Shown: in pieces, positions 1,978-10,589 of the stretch
Layout: every line of letters begins with the position of its first letter
Position numbering within the stretch: position 1 is the first letter of the stretch
From: Hexactinellida sp. DTS-2022
Lineage: Eukaryota > Porifera > Hexactinellida
DNA: 64,000 bases
Direction of reading: 5' to 3'
Assembly: GCA_028753945.1 (NCBI GenBank)
Contig: JAPNXP010000010.1
Coordinates: forward strand, 2,173,042 to 2,237,041
Program-made: the position numbers and the translations under genes
Notes under the pieces: generated by a model
Databases searched by the model: none
Told to the model about the DNA's origin: nothing
What the model saw: only the letters and a program-made list of their open reading frames with translations

Positions 1978-2442
1978 AACAATAGCATAATAAATTTTGT
2001 CAGCAACTGCTAGTGGGGAAACAGGCAGGCGGTAGGATTACACACATGTTATAGCACTAAAGAAGGATTAAATTGCAATATGAAAAGAATAAAATAGAAA
2101 ACTTTTAGAATAAACATATATAAACGATCGTAACTACTGACTCTTTAGTATAACAGGTGTAGTTTCTATATGAAAATCACTCTCCTCTTCTAGCTCTTTC
2201 GAATTAAGTATACGATCAAATTGAATTTTTTATCACCGTTAAATATGACGTAATCACTTTTTGTTAAATAGGACGTCGTCGGTGAAATTTTTAACAAGGT
2301 ACCAGGTTCCATTTTGAACCTGAGATGATGACTAATAACAATCTGAAGAGAAAAACTTGACTGCGAACATTGCTGGATTTTTCTGTAAGATTCCCCGTAT
2401 ATAGAGTATACACACGATAAAATGTTCTGTTTTGCTAATATA
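1978..2442. other. Non-coding gap between copy A and the TIR element
   Basis: AT-rich sequence with no supported gene. A weak inverted pair (ATCACCG near 2233, CGGTGA near 2279) may be part of the 5' end of copy A, but no terminal repeat could be matched. Confidence 0.4.
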
Positions 2443-2763
2443 CAGGGTTAAAACCCTACCATCTAAAGAAGTGCCTAACCAAAGTTTTTAAGGTTTGAAT
2501 TGATACTTTAGGTCACTAGGATTAGATTCAGCTCAGACAACATTTTTGAAAATTGTTTGTTGTCACATAATAGGTGACGTCATCATACGACAAAAATTTC
2601 ACACTATCGGCCATAACTTTGAAACTATATGCCGCCATGAAATGAAATTTGTAAATTTGAATAGTACCCAAGAAGACCTTTCGATTGATGTCTAAATTAC
2701 TTTAATCTGACGTGATCTGTATTTTACTCTATGACGTCATCAAAAACCCTTTCGAGGGATTCA
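2443..2763. repeat. Left terminal inverted repeat of the 7.5 kb element
   Basis: Pairs with 9641-9962 in inverted orientation. It contains two CRE-type octamers TGACGTCA (2575-2582 and 2732-2739), both mirrored in the right repeat (9822-9829 and 9665-9672). It ends at the CCCTTTCGAGGGATTCA block. Confidence 0.9.
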
Positions 2764-2898
2764 GCAGAGGCGGTTTAGGGGGGACCCTTTCGAGAACTAG
2801 CAAAGTGCAAAAGTCCAGTTGTGGATTAGGGAGTAAGATTAGACCTTAATACTGTATTTAACGTCTAATTAAGATGACTTCTGAGCTGAGTATCTATC

Positions 2899-3386
2899 TA
2901 TACTATTAGAACACAAGCCTGGGTGGGTATATATGTGTATGTATATATTTGTTTGTATGTTACGAGTTGATTGAAGAAAGTGGACGGTTTCCATATCTGA
3001 TTTTTGGCACCCGTCAACAAGTTGAGGTTTCCACTAAAGATTTCTCACCCCTCGACAAGTTATGACGTCATTGTCACATCTCGAGAACCCCGAAAATTCA
3101 CTTAACGCACATAATTCCTGCCCTCTAAGAGCTAAAAATCTGAAAATATAATAGAACATGTACATTAATGATGCGGACACGTTGGTCACACCAGATTGCC
3201 AATATGCTTACTCATTATCGCATGATGACATAATCACAAAAATTTCACATTGTTAAATTTGACATTTTAGGCCTATTTACGCTTTATAATTAATATTAGG
3301 AGTATATAAACCACACACCACCTTTGAAGCGGTTGGTGTGTGGTTGGATTCTGCCGCTAAGCGACCTAACAAGCGAAGTACGCTAG
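2899..3386 (+). mobile_element. Short non-autonomous Helitron-like element
   Basis: The 5' end reads TCTATACTATTA after an A (2898), a typical Helitron 5' TC end inserted after A. The 3' end has a GGTTGGTGTGTGG stretch pairing with CCACACACCACC, then GCGACCTAACAAGCG, and finishes CTAG (3383-3386) before a T (3387). The same 3' end occurs at 45826 and 55739 on the minus strand, each also ending CTAG|T. No coding capacity (488 bp). It lies inside the 7.5 kb TIR element just after its left repeat. The true start could be 2895. Confidence 0.6.
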
Positions 3387-3539
3387 TATATATATATAAG
3401 CCAAAACCTTTCTATTAACTCATTATAAGTCTTCGCTTTATCTTTTGGGCCCCATTTTTTCTTTTCTAATCGTTTCTGAAGATATCTGATCACTTCGTTG
3501 GAATTGATATATAAGTATTATACCGTATGTATATCTATA

Positions 3540-4618
3540 AAGTTTGCACCCAATACTCTTGACTGATGATGCACTCTTCAAAACCATTCCTGAGTTCAGA
3601 AACTAGAAAAACTGATAATACCTGCTTATATGCAATGGTGCAATCGGACCAAAGGAGAACCAACAAAATCTAGGACAAAGAGGCTGGATGCAATTTAAAT
3701 TGGACGCTGAAACATGGGCGAGCATAAATATTCCACCCCATGACACTAAACATCGTTTTACAGACGTTTTTGGAAAAGTTAAAGATGCGAAAGAGTCGTT
3801 TGGAGAATTTCATAAAACATGTCGGACTGAATTTGCTAGTAACAGTGGTCGCTACATTAAAAGCTACGGCACTATTGATATCAGCATACAATAAATTTTC
3901 GTTAGTTCTGAAACCGAGAATTAAATTTTATTTCAGAAGCACGTACTTCAAGAAACCTTTTCCAAGGAAAACGCCATTGTTTTATTTGCGACTCTAAGCG
4001 CGACAGTGATGATAGCAGGTACAATGTAGGCGGTCTTGGACGATGTTCTGTTTTTAGCGCAAGTAAACGCCTCATAGAAAGGAAAGGGATTTATATGAAA
4101 GATCCATCACATCGTTTCTGTCAAGCAGCAAAACGACTAGATATTCTCTTAAGTGGCCCCTCTCACGACATCTTTGCGTTGGATGTTTTCTATCACCAGT
4201 CCTGTTATATCAAGTTTGCTCTTGCACCACTTCAAGTTGATGATGATGATCTCAATAAAGAAAGGAAACAGGACTTATTTCAAGCTTTTTATTACCAAGT
4301 CCGAACTAGAATTATTCGGGACAAGAATGCATTCCTTCTCAACGAACTGTTAGAAGATGTAAAAATATTGAGTGATGAACAGGGGCTACCATTCCCTGCT
4401 GTCGAACATACAGCTACGTTGAAGCAGAAACTCGTCCAAAAATTCGAGGATAGAATATCTTTCTTTCCGAGTTGAAAATACATATTAGTACATGCATCAG
4501 ACGTAAATCCATGTGAATACGCAATCACTGCTCTACATGGCTCTGGATTGAGAGATGATGACGTAGCTAGGTCATTCAGTAGGGTGGTTAGACGAAAGTT
4601 GCAAAAATCTGCTGATCA
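3540..4618 (+). pseudogene. N-terminal part of the TGCDTT-family gene, copy B
   Basis: Visible blocks, in order: a Cys-containing start with GWMQFKLDAETWASINIP; FGEFHKTCRTEF; a GRYNVGGLGRCSVFS block; SHRFCQAAKRLDILL; and FYHQSCYIKF, continuing to about 4474. The repeated HxxC and CxxC-type spacing suggests zinc-binding N-terminal modules. The reading is interrupted several times and then split at 4618 by a MITE, with the coding sequence resuming after the duplicated GCTGATCA. The order of blocks matches copy A at 1-1977. Function is unknown; by position the N-terminal region could bind DNA. No convincing start codon can be assigned. Confidence 0.55.
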
Positions 4619-5139
4619 CAGTGCTGCCAAGTCTCCGTAAATTTAGTAGACTACGTAAATATACCCCTATCTACGTGTCTACGTATGAAAACTTATTTCT
4701 ACGTATTTCTAGCGAAATATATTTAAGACTTCTTGTTTAACATATAACTGCGTTTTGTTTTACTAGTGAACCACCATATCATTATTTATGTTTTATAATA
4801 TGTTAAATAATATCATAGTGATGAATTATTCCAATCGCAGAATACTCTTGATTAAAACAGTTGCACAATTAAAAATTAGTTAAATTAAATCTTACTTTGA
4901 TGGTTTGATACATACTATTAGTGAGTATATCTTATTGTTTACAAGCGCGAAAGCGTCCATATATCTACCTTTATAAATGATTATTCATACAAAATAGTTA
5001 GTTTATATGATTTGAAAAAGCAAATTAAGAACTATTGGGTCGCAGAGGGAATTTTAGCATGCTCCGTAAAAACTTTTGTTTCTCCGTAAATTTTATGGTC
5101 AATCTCCAGGAATTTATCTGAACTCACTTGGCAGCACTG
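4619..5139. mobile_element. hAT-type MITE, 521 bp, inserted in the copy B gene
   Basis: Ends CAGTGCTGCCAAGT and ACTTGGCAGCACTG are perfect inverted repeats. Target duplication GCTGATCA is at 4611-4618 and 5140-5147. The body is AT-rich with repeated CTACGTA near the left end and CTCCGTAAA near both ends. The sister copy is at 7741-8389. Confidence 0.92.
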
Positions 5140-7740
5140 GCTGATCATCAAAAACAATGGCCATTGACTCCTGAAGAACTGACAGAAATGCTGGATCGTG
5201 GACCATTGCAAGATCTTTACAACGTCATCTACTACACCATTCATAATTTTTCCAACATTAATCGATATAGCTATGCTGTGACAAGTTCTCACACAACAGC
5301 TATTAAGATTTGGTCTCTAGCAAATGACTGGGAGAGTCTTATTACAAGAGAGCCATCTCCAAAGCAAGTAGTATTGGGGCTTGTTATTAATAGAATGACT
5401 GGTAACAAGGAGGTTGCAAATTTGTTGCACAAATGCAATCACACCATATCTTATCAAGATATAAGAACTCAGAACCTGGCCTGGTCAAGAATGGTGTCTT
5501 CGAGGCAGCTACTTCTGTCCAACATGCGCAAAGGAATCTTCACACTCAGTACCATAGACAACAACGATGGAAAGCAAGAAAACTTTATTTCAACTGCCAA
5601 ATAAAGAGGAGAAAGAATCCATCTCAGAAATCGGATCTCAAGTAGAGCGACAACTTGATATATGTGACAGCGTAGATAATGAGCAGACAAATCCAGCGCC
5701 TTATCATATTGGGAGACGTGATGGATCCTCGCTTATAACAAATTACAAAGATGATGGCAATTTGTGGAAGGAACTTGATGCCCACTTCAAAAAAATATAG
5801 CATGGTCTGCTGCAGGATCATTGCCGTTGGAATACAAAGGAGAAGAATTACCGTTACTCGGCTCTTGGACTTCCTTCAATAAAATGGTCTGGAATTTCGG
5901 AACAGAGAGGTGCATCCAAGAATATTTGCCAGTCACTGCAGCGGCACCAGATTATCCGGTGTGTAAGGAATACCTTGATTTCCTGCTGGGCATCATGCAA
6001 GACCTAGAGATTCCCTACATATACGTCCATTCTGATGAAGCGGTTTATATTCAAAATTGTGCCATATCCTCTGGAAGAATAAGGAGCTCTAAAAAGATGT
6101 AATCTTGCTAATGGGCGTATTTCACCAACTGCACGTGAGACAAAAGTTGCTCTTCAAACGCCATAATTGTAGGGATACAAGCAGTGGTGTGTAGATTCAG
6201 GCATAATAGCCTCGGGGTCTGCAGATCAAGCGTTCGAAGGACGTCATTACTATAGAAGTATGAGAGTCCATAAGGAATGCTTTGACGCTCTTGTTCAGTT
6301 CAAAGTCGAAGAAATTACATCCGGCCATACCATCACAGAACCTGAATTGCTGTTTTTGCTCGTTGCTCTAAGAAAACAACCTAGTTCAAGCACAGTTGAC
6401 AATGTTGTGAAGTAATTAGGATTTGAGAACCTACTTTCAGATGTAACTCGAGCTGAGGATAGCACTGAAGCTAGCATGACCATTTCTTACCTCAAAGATG
6501 TCTCGTCCATGCTGGCAATGGTTTCAGCCGTTAGAGAAGGAAACATGGAACTAAACCTCCAATCTGAGAGGGATATGCTTAATCAAGTCTTTGCATTCAA
6601 CCACCAAAACTACGCAAGATATTGTAGCTATCAACATGTCTACTTACGCTCTATGGAAGAACAAAGCCACCCAGCTTTTGGAGAACTGAAGGCGAAAGGT
6701 TTGGGGGTAGCATCGGAGGTAAGCCATTTTCATCAATTCACGGTGACTTAATTACGGAATTGTTCAATAAAGAAACGAAAGGAACTGCTGGACCTTTCCG
6801 TTCCGGTTTCAGTACCAACACAAAGGCTGTAAATACATAGATAAGAACTATCCATATCCACAGTAAACTTCAGGAGACCTATAGGGAACAACTGATCCTT
6901 AAAACGTCCTTCACTCATAAGGAGGTGAGTCAGGGTTGCAAACAAAATCATGCAGATCATTCAAAAGTCTAAAGAGGCAGCTGAGAAGTTACGGTGTCAA
7001 TCCCTTTGACAAAAGCCCACCAAATGTTTACCAACTGGTGTTGAAATCGACAAAACTGTTGGCAGGGACATGCTCAATGCTTCCGCTACTGGAAATGTCT
7101 TGTTCAAGACCTTCGTTAACGAGAGACTCGAAAGCAATGTCAAAGACTTTTTTCTCCAATCAAGAAAGTGAAGCTTAACAACGGATGTCAGAAGAAGAAA
7201 ACAACCCAAAAAAGCAGTGAATCTAATGAAAGAAGATCGCCAAGCCTTCGGTCTTATCGTTGCAAAATCGGTCAATCTTTAAGAGGCATTTCAATACCCA
7301 ATAATAACAATCCCACTAGCTGTGGCTACATCTCAATTCAACACTAAGGCAGTCAAATAAGGCATCGCTCAGAAATTATTTGATGGACGAATCTTGTTTA
7401 ATTTTCGAAAACACACCTAAAAATTTAAAATTGTTCATGTTTTATTGATTGCCTGCTGCAATTCGATCTTAGCGCCCAAAGAAAACTTACCGCGAATGGC
7501 TGAAGAGTTTGTTGCAGTTCATAACTCCACCTAAAGAGTCAGAAGCAATTCAAGTAGGACTCATAACGACACCTACAAAGAAGACAGCATTAAAGGAGGC
7601 ACGAGAAAGGAAAGGGGAATAGAAGGGTTTGATCAACACATGCTGCAAGGTAGCAAATGGCAAGATTTCTTGAATAGCGGGGAGAATAAGGAAGAACTTA
7701 TACGACTCGTTGTAAAGTAGCTTGAAACGAGAGAGGGAAT
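5140..7740 (+). pseudogene. Central part of the TGCDTT-family gene, copy B
   Basis: Blocks readable on the plus strand: WPLTPEELTEMLDRGPLQDLY (5160), a long segment through SNMRKGIFTLSTIDNN (5520-5560), PAPYHIGRRDGSS (about 5690-5740), LGSWTSFNKMVWNFGTERC (5850), IPYIYVHSDEAVY (6010), FNHQNYARYCSYQH (6595-6640), then a KGTAGPFRSGFSTNT block (6780). The NYARY block followed by a GG/GF-rich segment is characteristic of this family in other invertebrates, as I recall it. Many stops and frame changes lie between blocks. From about 6830 to 7740 only weak traces remain. The gene is split again at 7740 by the second MITE. Confidence 0.55.
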
Positions 7741-8389
7741 CAGTGCTGCCAAGTCTCCGTAAATTTACGTAGACTACGTAAATATGACCCCTATCTACGT
7801 GTCTACGTATGAAGACTTATTTCTACGTATTTCTAGAGAAATAAATTTAAGACTTTTTGTGTAACATTTAGCTGCGTTTTCTTATTAATAGTGAACTATC
7901 TAATCATTATTTATGTTTTATATTATGTTAAATTATAGCTTAGTGATGGGTAATTGCAAATCACAGAATACTCATTACTATTTCTCTTCAAATTATGTTA
8001 GATTTGGGGGATAGACTCAACTGACAAATTTCACATTCAATCTTTAAACAGGACTTGAGCCATATTCTCTAGTGAATCTAATACTATCATACAATGTTTG
8101 TTTCTAGTTGATTTAAAACAGTTTCACAATTCAAAATTAGAAAAATTAAAAATTACATTGATAGTTTGTTACATGCTATTAGTGAGTATATCTTATTGTT
8201 TACAACGTCAAAATATCTACCTTTATAAATGATATTCATAAAAATTGTTAGTTTCTGTAATTTGTAGAAGCAAATTAAGACCTTTTGGCTCATAAAAGGA
8301 ATTTTAGAATGCTCCGTAAAAAGAAATTTTTCTCCGTAAATTTTATGGTCATTCTCCAAGAATTTATCTGAACTCACTTGGCAGCACTG
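7741..8389. mobile_element. hAT-type MITE, 649 bp, sister of the one at 4619
   Basis: Same ends as the 4619 element (CAGTGCTGCCAAGT / ACTTGGCAGCACTG). Target duplication GAGGGAAT is at 7733-7740 and 8390-8397. It is longer than its sister by about 130 bp of AT-rich interior. Confidence 0.92.
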
Positions 8390-9465
8390 GAGGGAATAAG
8401 CCTATTACAGCATCCACATATAGTGACTGCTGGAGACACGACGTATTCCATAAGAGTTGGAGAGATTAGCATCCTTTACAAGTGCAATCAGGAAGAAGTT
8501 GACACGCGTCTGGTACTACATGCTTCGCTGGATGATAATGATGTTGTTGTGGTCTCAAAATATACATACGTTCTCATTCTATTAATATGGGCATATGAAA
8601 AATGCAACGTTCAGAAGAAGTGGTATCTGAAATATGATCACAATAAATATGTTGATATTAATACAATCTGCACATTTCTGGGCCCAAAGATATGTCTCGC
8701 TCTTCCAGCGGTACATGCTGTGACAGGTTGTGACACAACATAATACCTGTTTAATGTGGGGAAAGTAAAGGTCATGAAAAAGCTCCAGAATACGCCAAGT
8801 AAAGTAGAATTACTCATGGATCTTGTTAAAGACCAGTCTATCTCAGAGGAAATTGTGGAAAGTGCAAAGGAGTTTCTTCGTTCGATGCTTTATACAGGAA
8901 AGCAGAAAGAAACCTATATCCAAACCAGAATTCGTTTGTACAAAGAAATGGGAGTGAAGTCGTCGATGGTTCTCCAACCAGATCCTGATTCTGTTGTACA
9001 AGTCATCAAGCGAGTCCACTATCAAGTTTACTTCTGACTGAAATCAATAATGAAATCATACCCTTCAGCAATTATGGATGGATATGGTGCGAGAAGCAGA
9101 AACTTGTTGTGCCAGTATGGTTCACCGGGAGTCAGTTACCACTATCGCTGAGTAGCAAGAGGCGAAAAAAGAAAAGTAATTAAAAAAATGCAGATGCCGA
9201 AGATATCCTAGAACCGCAAAGAGGGAGGCGTAAGAGGAGAAGAAAAATGAGCCAGATGACGTTGAGGAACAGTGAAGAAATCAGTGATAGTAATCTCATT
9301 TACCAAGCGGACGATGAGATGGATGTAATTCAAGAAGCTGCTGCACAACCTTTGCTGACTGAAGAAGAAGATATTTCGTTCGCGGATAGCAATGTAAACG
9401 AGAGCGACTGGGAGGTTTCAGAATTCCTTTCAAGTGGGGACACTGGAGATGAATGGATGCTATGA
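8390..9465 (+). pseudogene. C-terminal part of the TGCDTT-family gene, copy B (EXO1/FEN1-like core)
   Basis: Begins in an 8-bp duplication made by the MITE and reads EEVDTRLVLHA, then VVVVSKYTYVLILLIWAY, then ALPAVHAVTGCDTT and, after a break, FNVGKVKVMKKL. This order (acidic EExDTR, a hydrophobic strand usually carrying DTDVL, then GCD followed by a glycine/lysine GKxK helix) resembles the GCDY...GIGxxKA region of EXO1/FEN1/XPG 5' nucleases. That resemblance is my inference. A KLVVPVWFTGSQLP stretch follows near 9105. A separate acidic tail (9247-9465, many D/E) closes the gene about 175 bp before the right inverted repeat. The usual DTD is KYT here, so this copy is probably dead. Confidence 0.55.
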
Positions 9466-9640
9466 ATCATTAATAATGAATACTATGTATCAGTTTATTA
9501 TTATCGTATATTCAGTAAATATTAGTCCATAAAGTACTTACGAAAATTGCGAAAACATGCGTAAGGAATTTTCGGAGTTCCTTTATGACATGCATGAGGT
9601 GAAATTGAGTAAAGTGACGTTTGTCGTGATAAAAAAAAGT

Positions 9641-9962
9641 TGAATCCCTCGAAAGGATTTTTGTTGACGTCATAGAGTAAAATACAGATTACGTCAGATT
9701 AAAATAATTTAGACATCAATCGAAAGGTCTTCTTAGGTTCAATTCAAATTTACAAATTTCATGTCATGGCGGCATATAGTTTCAAAGTTATGGCCGATAG
9801 TGTGAAATTTTTGTCTTGTGATGACGTCACCTATTATGTGAAAACCAACAATTTTGAAAAATGTTGTCTGGGCTTAAACTAATCCTAGTGACCTAAAGTA
9901 TCAATTCAAACCTTAAAAACTTTGGTTAGGCACTTCCTTAGATGGTTAGGGTTTTTACCCTG
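9641..9962. repeat. Right terminal inverted repeat of the 7.5 kb element
   Basis: Inverted counterpart of 2443-2763. Its last bases (CCCTG) became part of the 8-bp target duplication CCCTGTAT of the hAT element at 9966. Confidence 0.9.
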
Positions 9963-9984
9963 TATCAGGCCTGGGGCAGAGGGG

Positions 9985-10380
9985 CTGGATGGATTATGGA
10001 TTATGGATTTCATGGATTTATAGTCCATCAAATCCATAATCCATGGATTTTGGATGGATTTGGATTGACAAATCCCAAATTCATGGATATGGGATGGATT
10101 TGGATTCTCCAAATTCCAAGGAAATCCGTGAAATCCATGAGATCAATTAGATCCATGAAATCCATCAGATCCATGAAATCCATCAGATCCATGAAATCCA
10201 TCAGATCCATGAAATCCATCAGATCCACGAGATCCATGAAATCCATAAGATCTATCAGATCCATGAAATCCATTAGATCCATGGAATCCATGAGATCCAT
10301 GAGATCCACGAGATCCATGAAATCCATCAGATCCATGAAATCCATCAGATCCATGAAATCCATAAAATCCATAAAATATT
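9985..10380. repeat. Minisatellite (ATCCATGAA/ATCCATCAG type) near the left hAT end
   Basis: Tandem 9-18 bp units of the form GATCCATGAAATCCATCA repeat from about 10130 to 10375, preceded by looser ATGGATT-rich sequence from 9985. It is mirrored in inverse orientation at 18410-18780. Long low-complexity open frames over it (alternating MDF/MDL or KSI/RSM) are artefacts of the array. Confidence 0.9.
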
Positions 10381-10589
10381 TTTTCCATAATTCACTTACT
10401 AGACTGGAATTTGGACGGAGCCCCAGAACTAAATTACTAAACAAGTGATACATCATAAAATATAGGCCGTGAATTAGACAATACTGAATTAGGCAATACA
10501 ATGGGCCCTAGAGTTCAGGAGTCATGACTCTAATGAGTAATGTAATAAATAATACTAAATAAGGCCAGATGCCATATTGGCCGAGACAA
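10381..10589. other. Short non-coding interval
   Basis: AT-rich sequence between the minisatellite and the hAT transposase remnant. Nothing recognised. Confidence 0.4.

Follow-up and report, generated by a model that had tools for sequence, protein, structure and literature searches.

Element structure and copies in the genome

The stretch of DNA analysed here (the window; 64,000 nucleotides of contig JAPNXP010000010.1 of Hexactinellida sp. DTS-2022) contains an element in which two long terminal inverted repeats (TIRs) enclose a single decayed gene (Table 1), and which, with Academ compared by description only, is probably a decayed DNA transposon copy from AcademX, the nuclease-bearing branch of the Academ superfamily. 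An earlier note, made from the letters of the window, had described TIRs of 321-322 bp around one decayed gene between positions 2443 and 9962. The repeats and the gene were borne out, with 306 of 324 aligned positions identical between the arms at 2440-2763 and 9641-9965 (score 266, against a top score of 12 in 100 shuffles), an arm length of ~325 bp and, in a separate comparison of both inverted repeats, 94% identity over 314 nt; the ends are corrected to 2439-9966 through the tips common to the family, 5'-TATACAGGG...CCCTGTATA. At the left tip, 14 of 15 repeat pairs have TATACAGG and the remaining one has TATACAAG; at the right tip, 14 of the 15 have CCTGTATA and the window copy has CCTGTATC (TATC).

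Table 1. Features of the element in the window (positions in the window; + is the strand of the gene).
Feature	Positions	Strand	Remarks
Whole element, family 1	2439..9966	+	5'-TATACAGGG...CCCTGTATC-3'; ~7.5 kb
Left TIR	2439..2763	.	~325 bp
Insert without counterpart in L021	about 2898-3388	.	alignment gap and junction letters
N-terminal third of gene	3563..4619	+	two Cys/His modules (CxxC...HxxxC, by eye); stops present; tblastn with L021 protein
Nested insert	4619..5139	.	ends CAGTGCTGCCAAG / CTTGGCAGCACTG; exact 8-bp target duplication GCTGATCA
Middle of gene	5140..7215	+	DDE-like region of DUF6589 type plus linker; frames broken; Pfam match in sister L045
Start of FEN1-like domain	7338..7740	+	strong decay
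Second nested insert, same kind as the first	7741..8389	.	CAGTGCTGCCAAG ends; exact 8-bp target duplication GAGGGAAT
Remainder of FEN1-like domain and following stretch	8390..9034	+	EEVDTR, KYTYV, HAVTGCDTT, then stop
C-terminal tail of gene	9037..9462	+	
Right TIR	9641..9966	.	~325 bp

The 112.4-Mb assembly (18 contigs) was searched for further copies of the inverted repeat, with 40 matches scored of 52 candidates; 37 of the 40 were read, in 20 stretches together with locus L053 and the window, and the other three lie at C11:12100767, C4:3905490 and C14:4192725. The same gene is present in all four coding pairs read, namely the window copy and the loci L021, L022 and L023 (~6 kb each). The window copy aligns to L021 in four blocks of 94-96% identity, which make up the whole element minus three inserts, and the two nested inserts with 8-bp duplications are presumably hAT-like, judging by the size of those duplications. 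In the coding copies the gene is ~1,590 codons long (a protein of ~1,590 amino acids). It consists of two overlapping frames (886 and 720 codons) in L021 and of a single frame across that joint in L022 and L023, which are broken elsewhere, so that no end-to-end open gene was found among the window-family copies read. The identity of 99.4% between L022 and L021 over 5,481 aligned bases suggests recent movement.

Other repeat pairs are non-coding. All ten pairs at L024-L033, as well as L037, L039 and L040, contain no open reading frame (ORF) above 95 amino acids, tblastn with the gene gives no match in them, and their ends are 83-89% like those of the coding family. Three of these copies (L024, L025 and L031; G000 C16, C5 and C2) are derivatives of ~3.6 kb with inverted arms of ~1.4 kb that are 99% alike, from which they look young, and L024 shares with L021 just the last ~500 bp, at 83% identity. 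Locus L034 contains two same-sense repeats with gene fragments, and on C7 gene pieces lie beside a single repeat. The pair at L035/L036 (G000 C15:1374993-1385891) encloses a retroelement whose ORFs, named by eye, resemble reverse transcriptase and recombinase, ~0.9 kb between the two loci lying outside the fetched sequence. The expectation that the gene family lies inside the inverted repeats is therefore true of all four coding pairs read but not of every repeat copy, and a different transposase-sized gene of a DNA transposon, which the earlier note had considered as a possible contradiction, was seen in none of the pairs read.

Beyond the family itself, protein searches of the genome gave at least 70 matches for the C-terminal half of the protein (24-100% identity) and at least 63 for the N-terminal half. 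A sister family at L045 is ~50% identical and is organised in the same way, its tips being TATACGGGG; its inverted repeats are 97% alike in a 329-nt alignment, which includes ~24 nt beyond the tips, and TAA is seen by eye on both sides. The nuclease domain can be aligned across three lineages, that of L021 and two that are 20-27% identical to it. Within the window, positions 1-2401 contain, on the minus strand, a partial second Academ-like copy, of a sister family of L044/L045, whose TIR tip (...GATTCCCCGTATA) ends at ~2401, 37 bp away from the element. Neither viral contigs nor bacterial genomes yielded a relative: scanning the viral contigs for peptides produced eight pattern matches, none of them a relative, the TGCDT pattern occurred in no stretch of the viral contigs and in four stretches of the bacterial genomes, which tblastn did not show to be relatives, and no FEN1-type relatives that could deepen the profile were found in the viral contigs.

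Target site duplication

The joined flanks of 14 copies were compared with the genome, with 40 of 1,815 candidates scored, and further empty relatives are therefore possible. Among the matches listed, unoccupied paralogous sites are present for three insertions, those at L029 (35 sites), L023 (four) and L027 (one). Eight of these were fetched (3 of the 35, all four and the single one, respectively), and each of the eight holds a single copy of AGA, TTA or AAT at the junction, with no TATA. Because the empty sites contain one three-base copy without TATA, the tips are read as TATACAGG and the target duplication as 3 bp, and TA or TATA as the target duplication is ruled out. Empty sites had been expected by the earlier note to reveal a duplication of TA or TATA; a duplication was indeed found, of 3 bp, and the TATA of the supposed flanks belongs to the tips of the element. 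The insertion at L029 lies in a multi-copy repeat that is perhaps itself a transposon, since its flank letters resemble, by eye, a THAP-type coding stretch.

An exact 3-bp match of the flanks occurs in 13 of 15 paired copies, compared with 10 of 210 cross-pairs, and the two pairs without it are L033 (ATC/ATA) and the window copy (TAA/AGG). This count left out L034 (two same-sense repeats), L037 and L039 (partial repeat), L038 (one repeat) and the L035/L036 pair, which extends across two loci and has the flanks TAT/TAT by eye. A long array of 9-bp units lies at 10070-10430, near the right end of the element, and a rearrangement at this array might be the cause of the missing right-flank duplication in the window copy. 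Staggered joining by DDE transposases produces a fixed duplication such as this one of 3 bp.

Domains of the encoded protein

The protein of the sister family at L045 matches DUF6589 (Pfam PF20231) at residues 69-344 with an E-value of 4.5e-10 and 39.2 bits (cut-off 27). Pfam assigns no function to this family, and a literature search found no paper mentioning it. In the aligned region, all four rows contain DNxD, a D preceded by hydrophobic residues, and GG[FL]H, and DxxxE is kept in the rows long enough to reach it, these acidic motifs being retained in DDE order across lineages that are 19-24% identical to L021. Differences between L021 and L045 at codon positions 1, 2 and 3 number 102, 57 and 166 in the DDE part and 89, 60 and 145 in the nuclease part, a pattern that, at the level of sequence, is as expected under constraint on the protein in both parts. 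The DUF6589-type region is likely, from its motifs and the Pfam match in L045, to be a DDE-type transposase core, and the earlier suggestion that a FEN1-like fold replaces the DDE domain finds no support in view of the same match and motifs. The protein is likely the transposase of the element, as had been proposed, with its gene inside all four coding pairs read.

The C-terminal domain contains, in this order, the motifs DG, DxYxxxSxK, EEADTR, DTDV and HxxTGxDT, and its alignment, with L021 included, has the invariant residues D14, D58, E164, E165, D167, D191 and D193 (seven rows) and D253 (six rows). Seven acidic metal ligands in this order form the pattern of FEN1. The structural model of a relative at L071, which is 23% identical to L021, has a mean predicted local distance difference test score (pLDDT) of at least 70 in 32 of the 36 ten-residue blocks between residues 641 and 1000. 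In a search of the PDB with this model, ranks 1-21 are all XRN2/Rat1, FEN1, T5 exonuclease, Rad2 or XPG (E-values from 4e-4 to 0.15, five of them below 0.001), and the matches beyond rank 21 are unrelated except for an XPG entry at rank 24. Similarly, in a library of viral structures the first match is an XRN 5'-3' exonuclease and the second is unnamed, both with probability 1.00, and a flap endonuclease follows at rank 6 (probability 0.87). The structure search that the earlier note had proposed thus recovers XRN, FEN and XPG nucleases and, as modelled on this one relative, the wider family has a C-terminal domain with the FEN1/XRN-type fold. It is like FEN1, EXO1, XPG and XRN in the PIN-like fold of L071, in the order of its acidic motifs and in a weak match to the EXO1 profile, and differs from FEN1, EXO1 and XPG in having TGCDT in place of GCDY, a GK stretch in place of the GIGxxKA motif of these nucleases, and a position C-terminal to a transposase-like part.

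In the window copy, the EExDTR motif, the hydrophobic strand, HAxTGCDTT and the N-terminal Cys/His modules (by eye) are present as first described. The nuclease domain itself is broken, with KYTYV in place of KDTDV, whereby two of the FEN1-type acidic ligands are altered, and with a stop after TGCDTT.

Several results weigh against this account of the element. The TM-scores of the L071 matches are low (TMt 0.29-0.53 in PDB ranks 1-21), partly because the query includes other parts of the protein, and the model of L021, from the family of the window, has a mean pLDDT of 40, so that the evidence for the fold rests on a relative. No Pfam XPG family matched the proteins of the family, PF00867 (XPG_I) occurs at six places in the genome, none of them at a listed family position, and sequence searches of the PDB gave chance-level matches only. 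Comparisons by hhalign with the EXO1, GEN1 and XPG proteins of the same genome are weak (E-values of 0.0003, 0.062 and 0.029, respectively); with the three together the E-value is 0.0052, the best of 20 column shuffles giving 0.04, and the EXO1 match is weak but in register. The FEN1-like fold first proposed for the C-terminal core accordingly stands on the L071 model, but sequence profiles miss XPG and the L021 model failed. For the DDE-like part there is no confident model, most of it being modelled poorly, and no PDB sequence match, and the window family is below the DUF6589 threshold at 11.4 bits (22 bits at the L023 locus). Finally, the assignment to Academ follows the published description of that superfamily and not its reference sequences (Repbase).

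Classification of the element

Academ proteins carry an XPG-type nuclease. According to a published description, AcademX elements encode a nuclease and have target duplications of 3 or 4 bp, and AcademH elements encode a helicase and have duplications of 9 or 10 bp, the relation of duplication length to helicase or nuclease among the Academ lineages being the inference of that author (PMC10045372). Academ is also counted among the superfamilies with DDD/E transposases in a second source (PMC9587614). The present element fits AcademX because its nuclease, its 3-bp duplication and its probable DDE domain match the former description (PMC10045372). It differs from AcademH, as described in that source, in its 3-bp duplication and in that no helicase family matched the proteins of the family. 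None of the Helicase_C matches listed (all 100 candidates scored) or of the DEAD matches listed (36 of 98 candidates scored) lies within 30 kb of the DUF6589 places, and no helicase-bearing Academ relative was seen near them.

The families described here, with their TATACAGGG and TATACGGGG tips and their long-armed non-coding derivatives, are best filed as new families within the known Academ (AcademX) kind and not as an undescribed class of elements. The earlier note had regarded the element as its best candidate for an undescribed system, but nuclease-encoding AcademX elements with 3- or 4-bp duplications are already in print (PMC10045372). A literature search on FEN1-like or XPG nucleases in transposons found no paper on point among those listed, which is no proof of their absence.

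Alternative explanations

The reading first given to this element, in which the FEN1-like domain is itself the catalytic core of the transposase and no working DDE domain exists, is quite unlikely. The nuclease domain does keep the expected acidic residues, no other part of the L071 model is predicted with as much confidence, and the DDE-like part lacks a confident fold or a PDB sequence match; however, the region upstream of the nuclease is under the same kind of codon constraint and includes the DUF6589 match in L045, its acidic motifs remain in DDE order across lineages 19-24% identical to L021, and the fixed 3-bp duplication is typical of DDE staggered joining. We know of no FEN1-type nuclease that joins DNA ends.

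It is likewise unlikely that the FEN1-like domain has no part in transposition and is instead a passenger, or an accessory acting for example against host repair. The domain lies C-terminal to the transposase-like part in three lineages and is under codon constraint, and duplication lengths in Academ have been tied to helicase or nuclease by inference of the author (PMC10045372). That another transposon moves these ends, the gene having merely been captured by one element, is very improbable. Such a history would suit the ten gene-free pairs with ends just 83-89% like the coding ones, and the reading covered 37 of the 40 listed repeat matches, with 40 of the 52 candidates scored. The four coding pairs all hold the gene, however, and pieces of it adjoin single repeats at L034 and C7; the sister family, ~50% identical, is arranged alike, with TATAC tips of its own and a duplication of 3 bp; and, apart from the nested retroelement at L035/L036, the pairs read contain no other transposase-sized ORF.

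Possible mechanism of transposition

For an AcademX-type element, the DUF6589-type region would act as a DDE transposase of the RNase H-like type: it would bind the inverted repeats, excise the element and join it to the target at positions staggered by 3 bp. The FEN1-like domain at the C terminus may serve as a structure-specific nuclease for flaps or hairpins, trimming those that form at the ends of the element or at the gaps left after joining, and the long-armed non-coding copies may have been moved by the same enzymes or by those of a close relative. The family-1 tip AGGGTAAAAACCCT can form a 5-bp hairpin (-6.1 kcal/mol in L021), and the sister-family tip forms no hairpin of note (-0.4 kcal/mol; RNA parameters in both cases), so that a general role for hairpins is unsupported.

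A more specific and doubtful proposal is that two nucleases work in one protein, with the DDE part joining the ends and the FEN1-like part making one of the excision cuts, which would be, for instance, that of the non-transferred strand or of the terminal AGGGTAAAAACCCT hairpin of family 1. To our knowledge, no other DDE transposon has such a scheme.

Significance

The analysis corrects the ends of the element and demonstrates its target duplication by means of unoccupied sites, and it provides evidence at the level of a modelled fold for placing the 'TGCDTT' domain among the FEN1/XRN-type nucleases. Should its two nucleases work as one machine, the protein would be a natural system for studying the coupling of a structure-specific nuclease to a transposase. 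Relatives in the same genome that have kept long open frames make this coupling testable.

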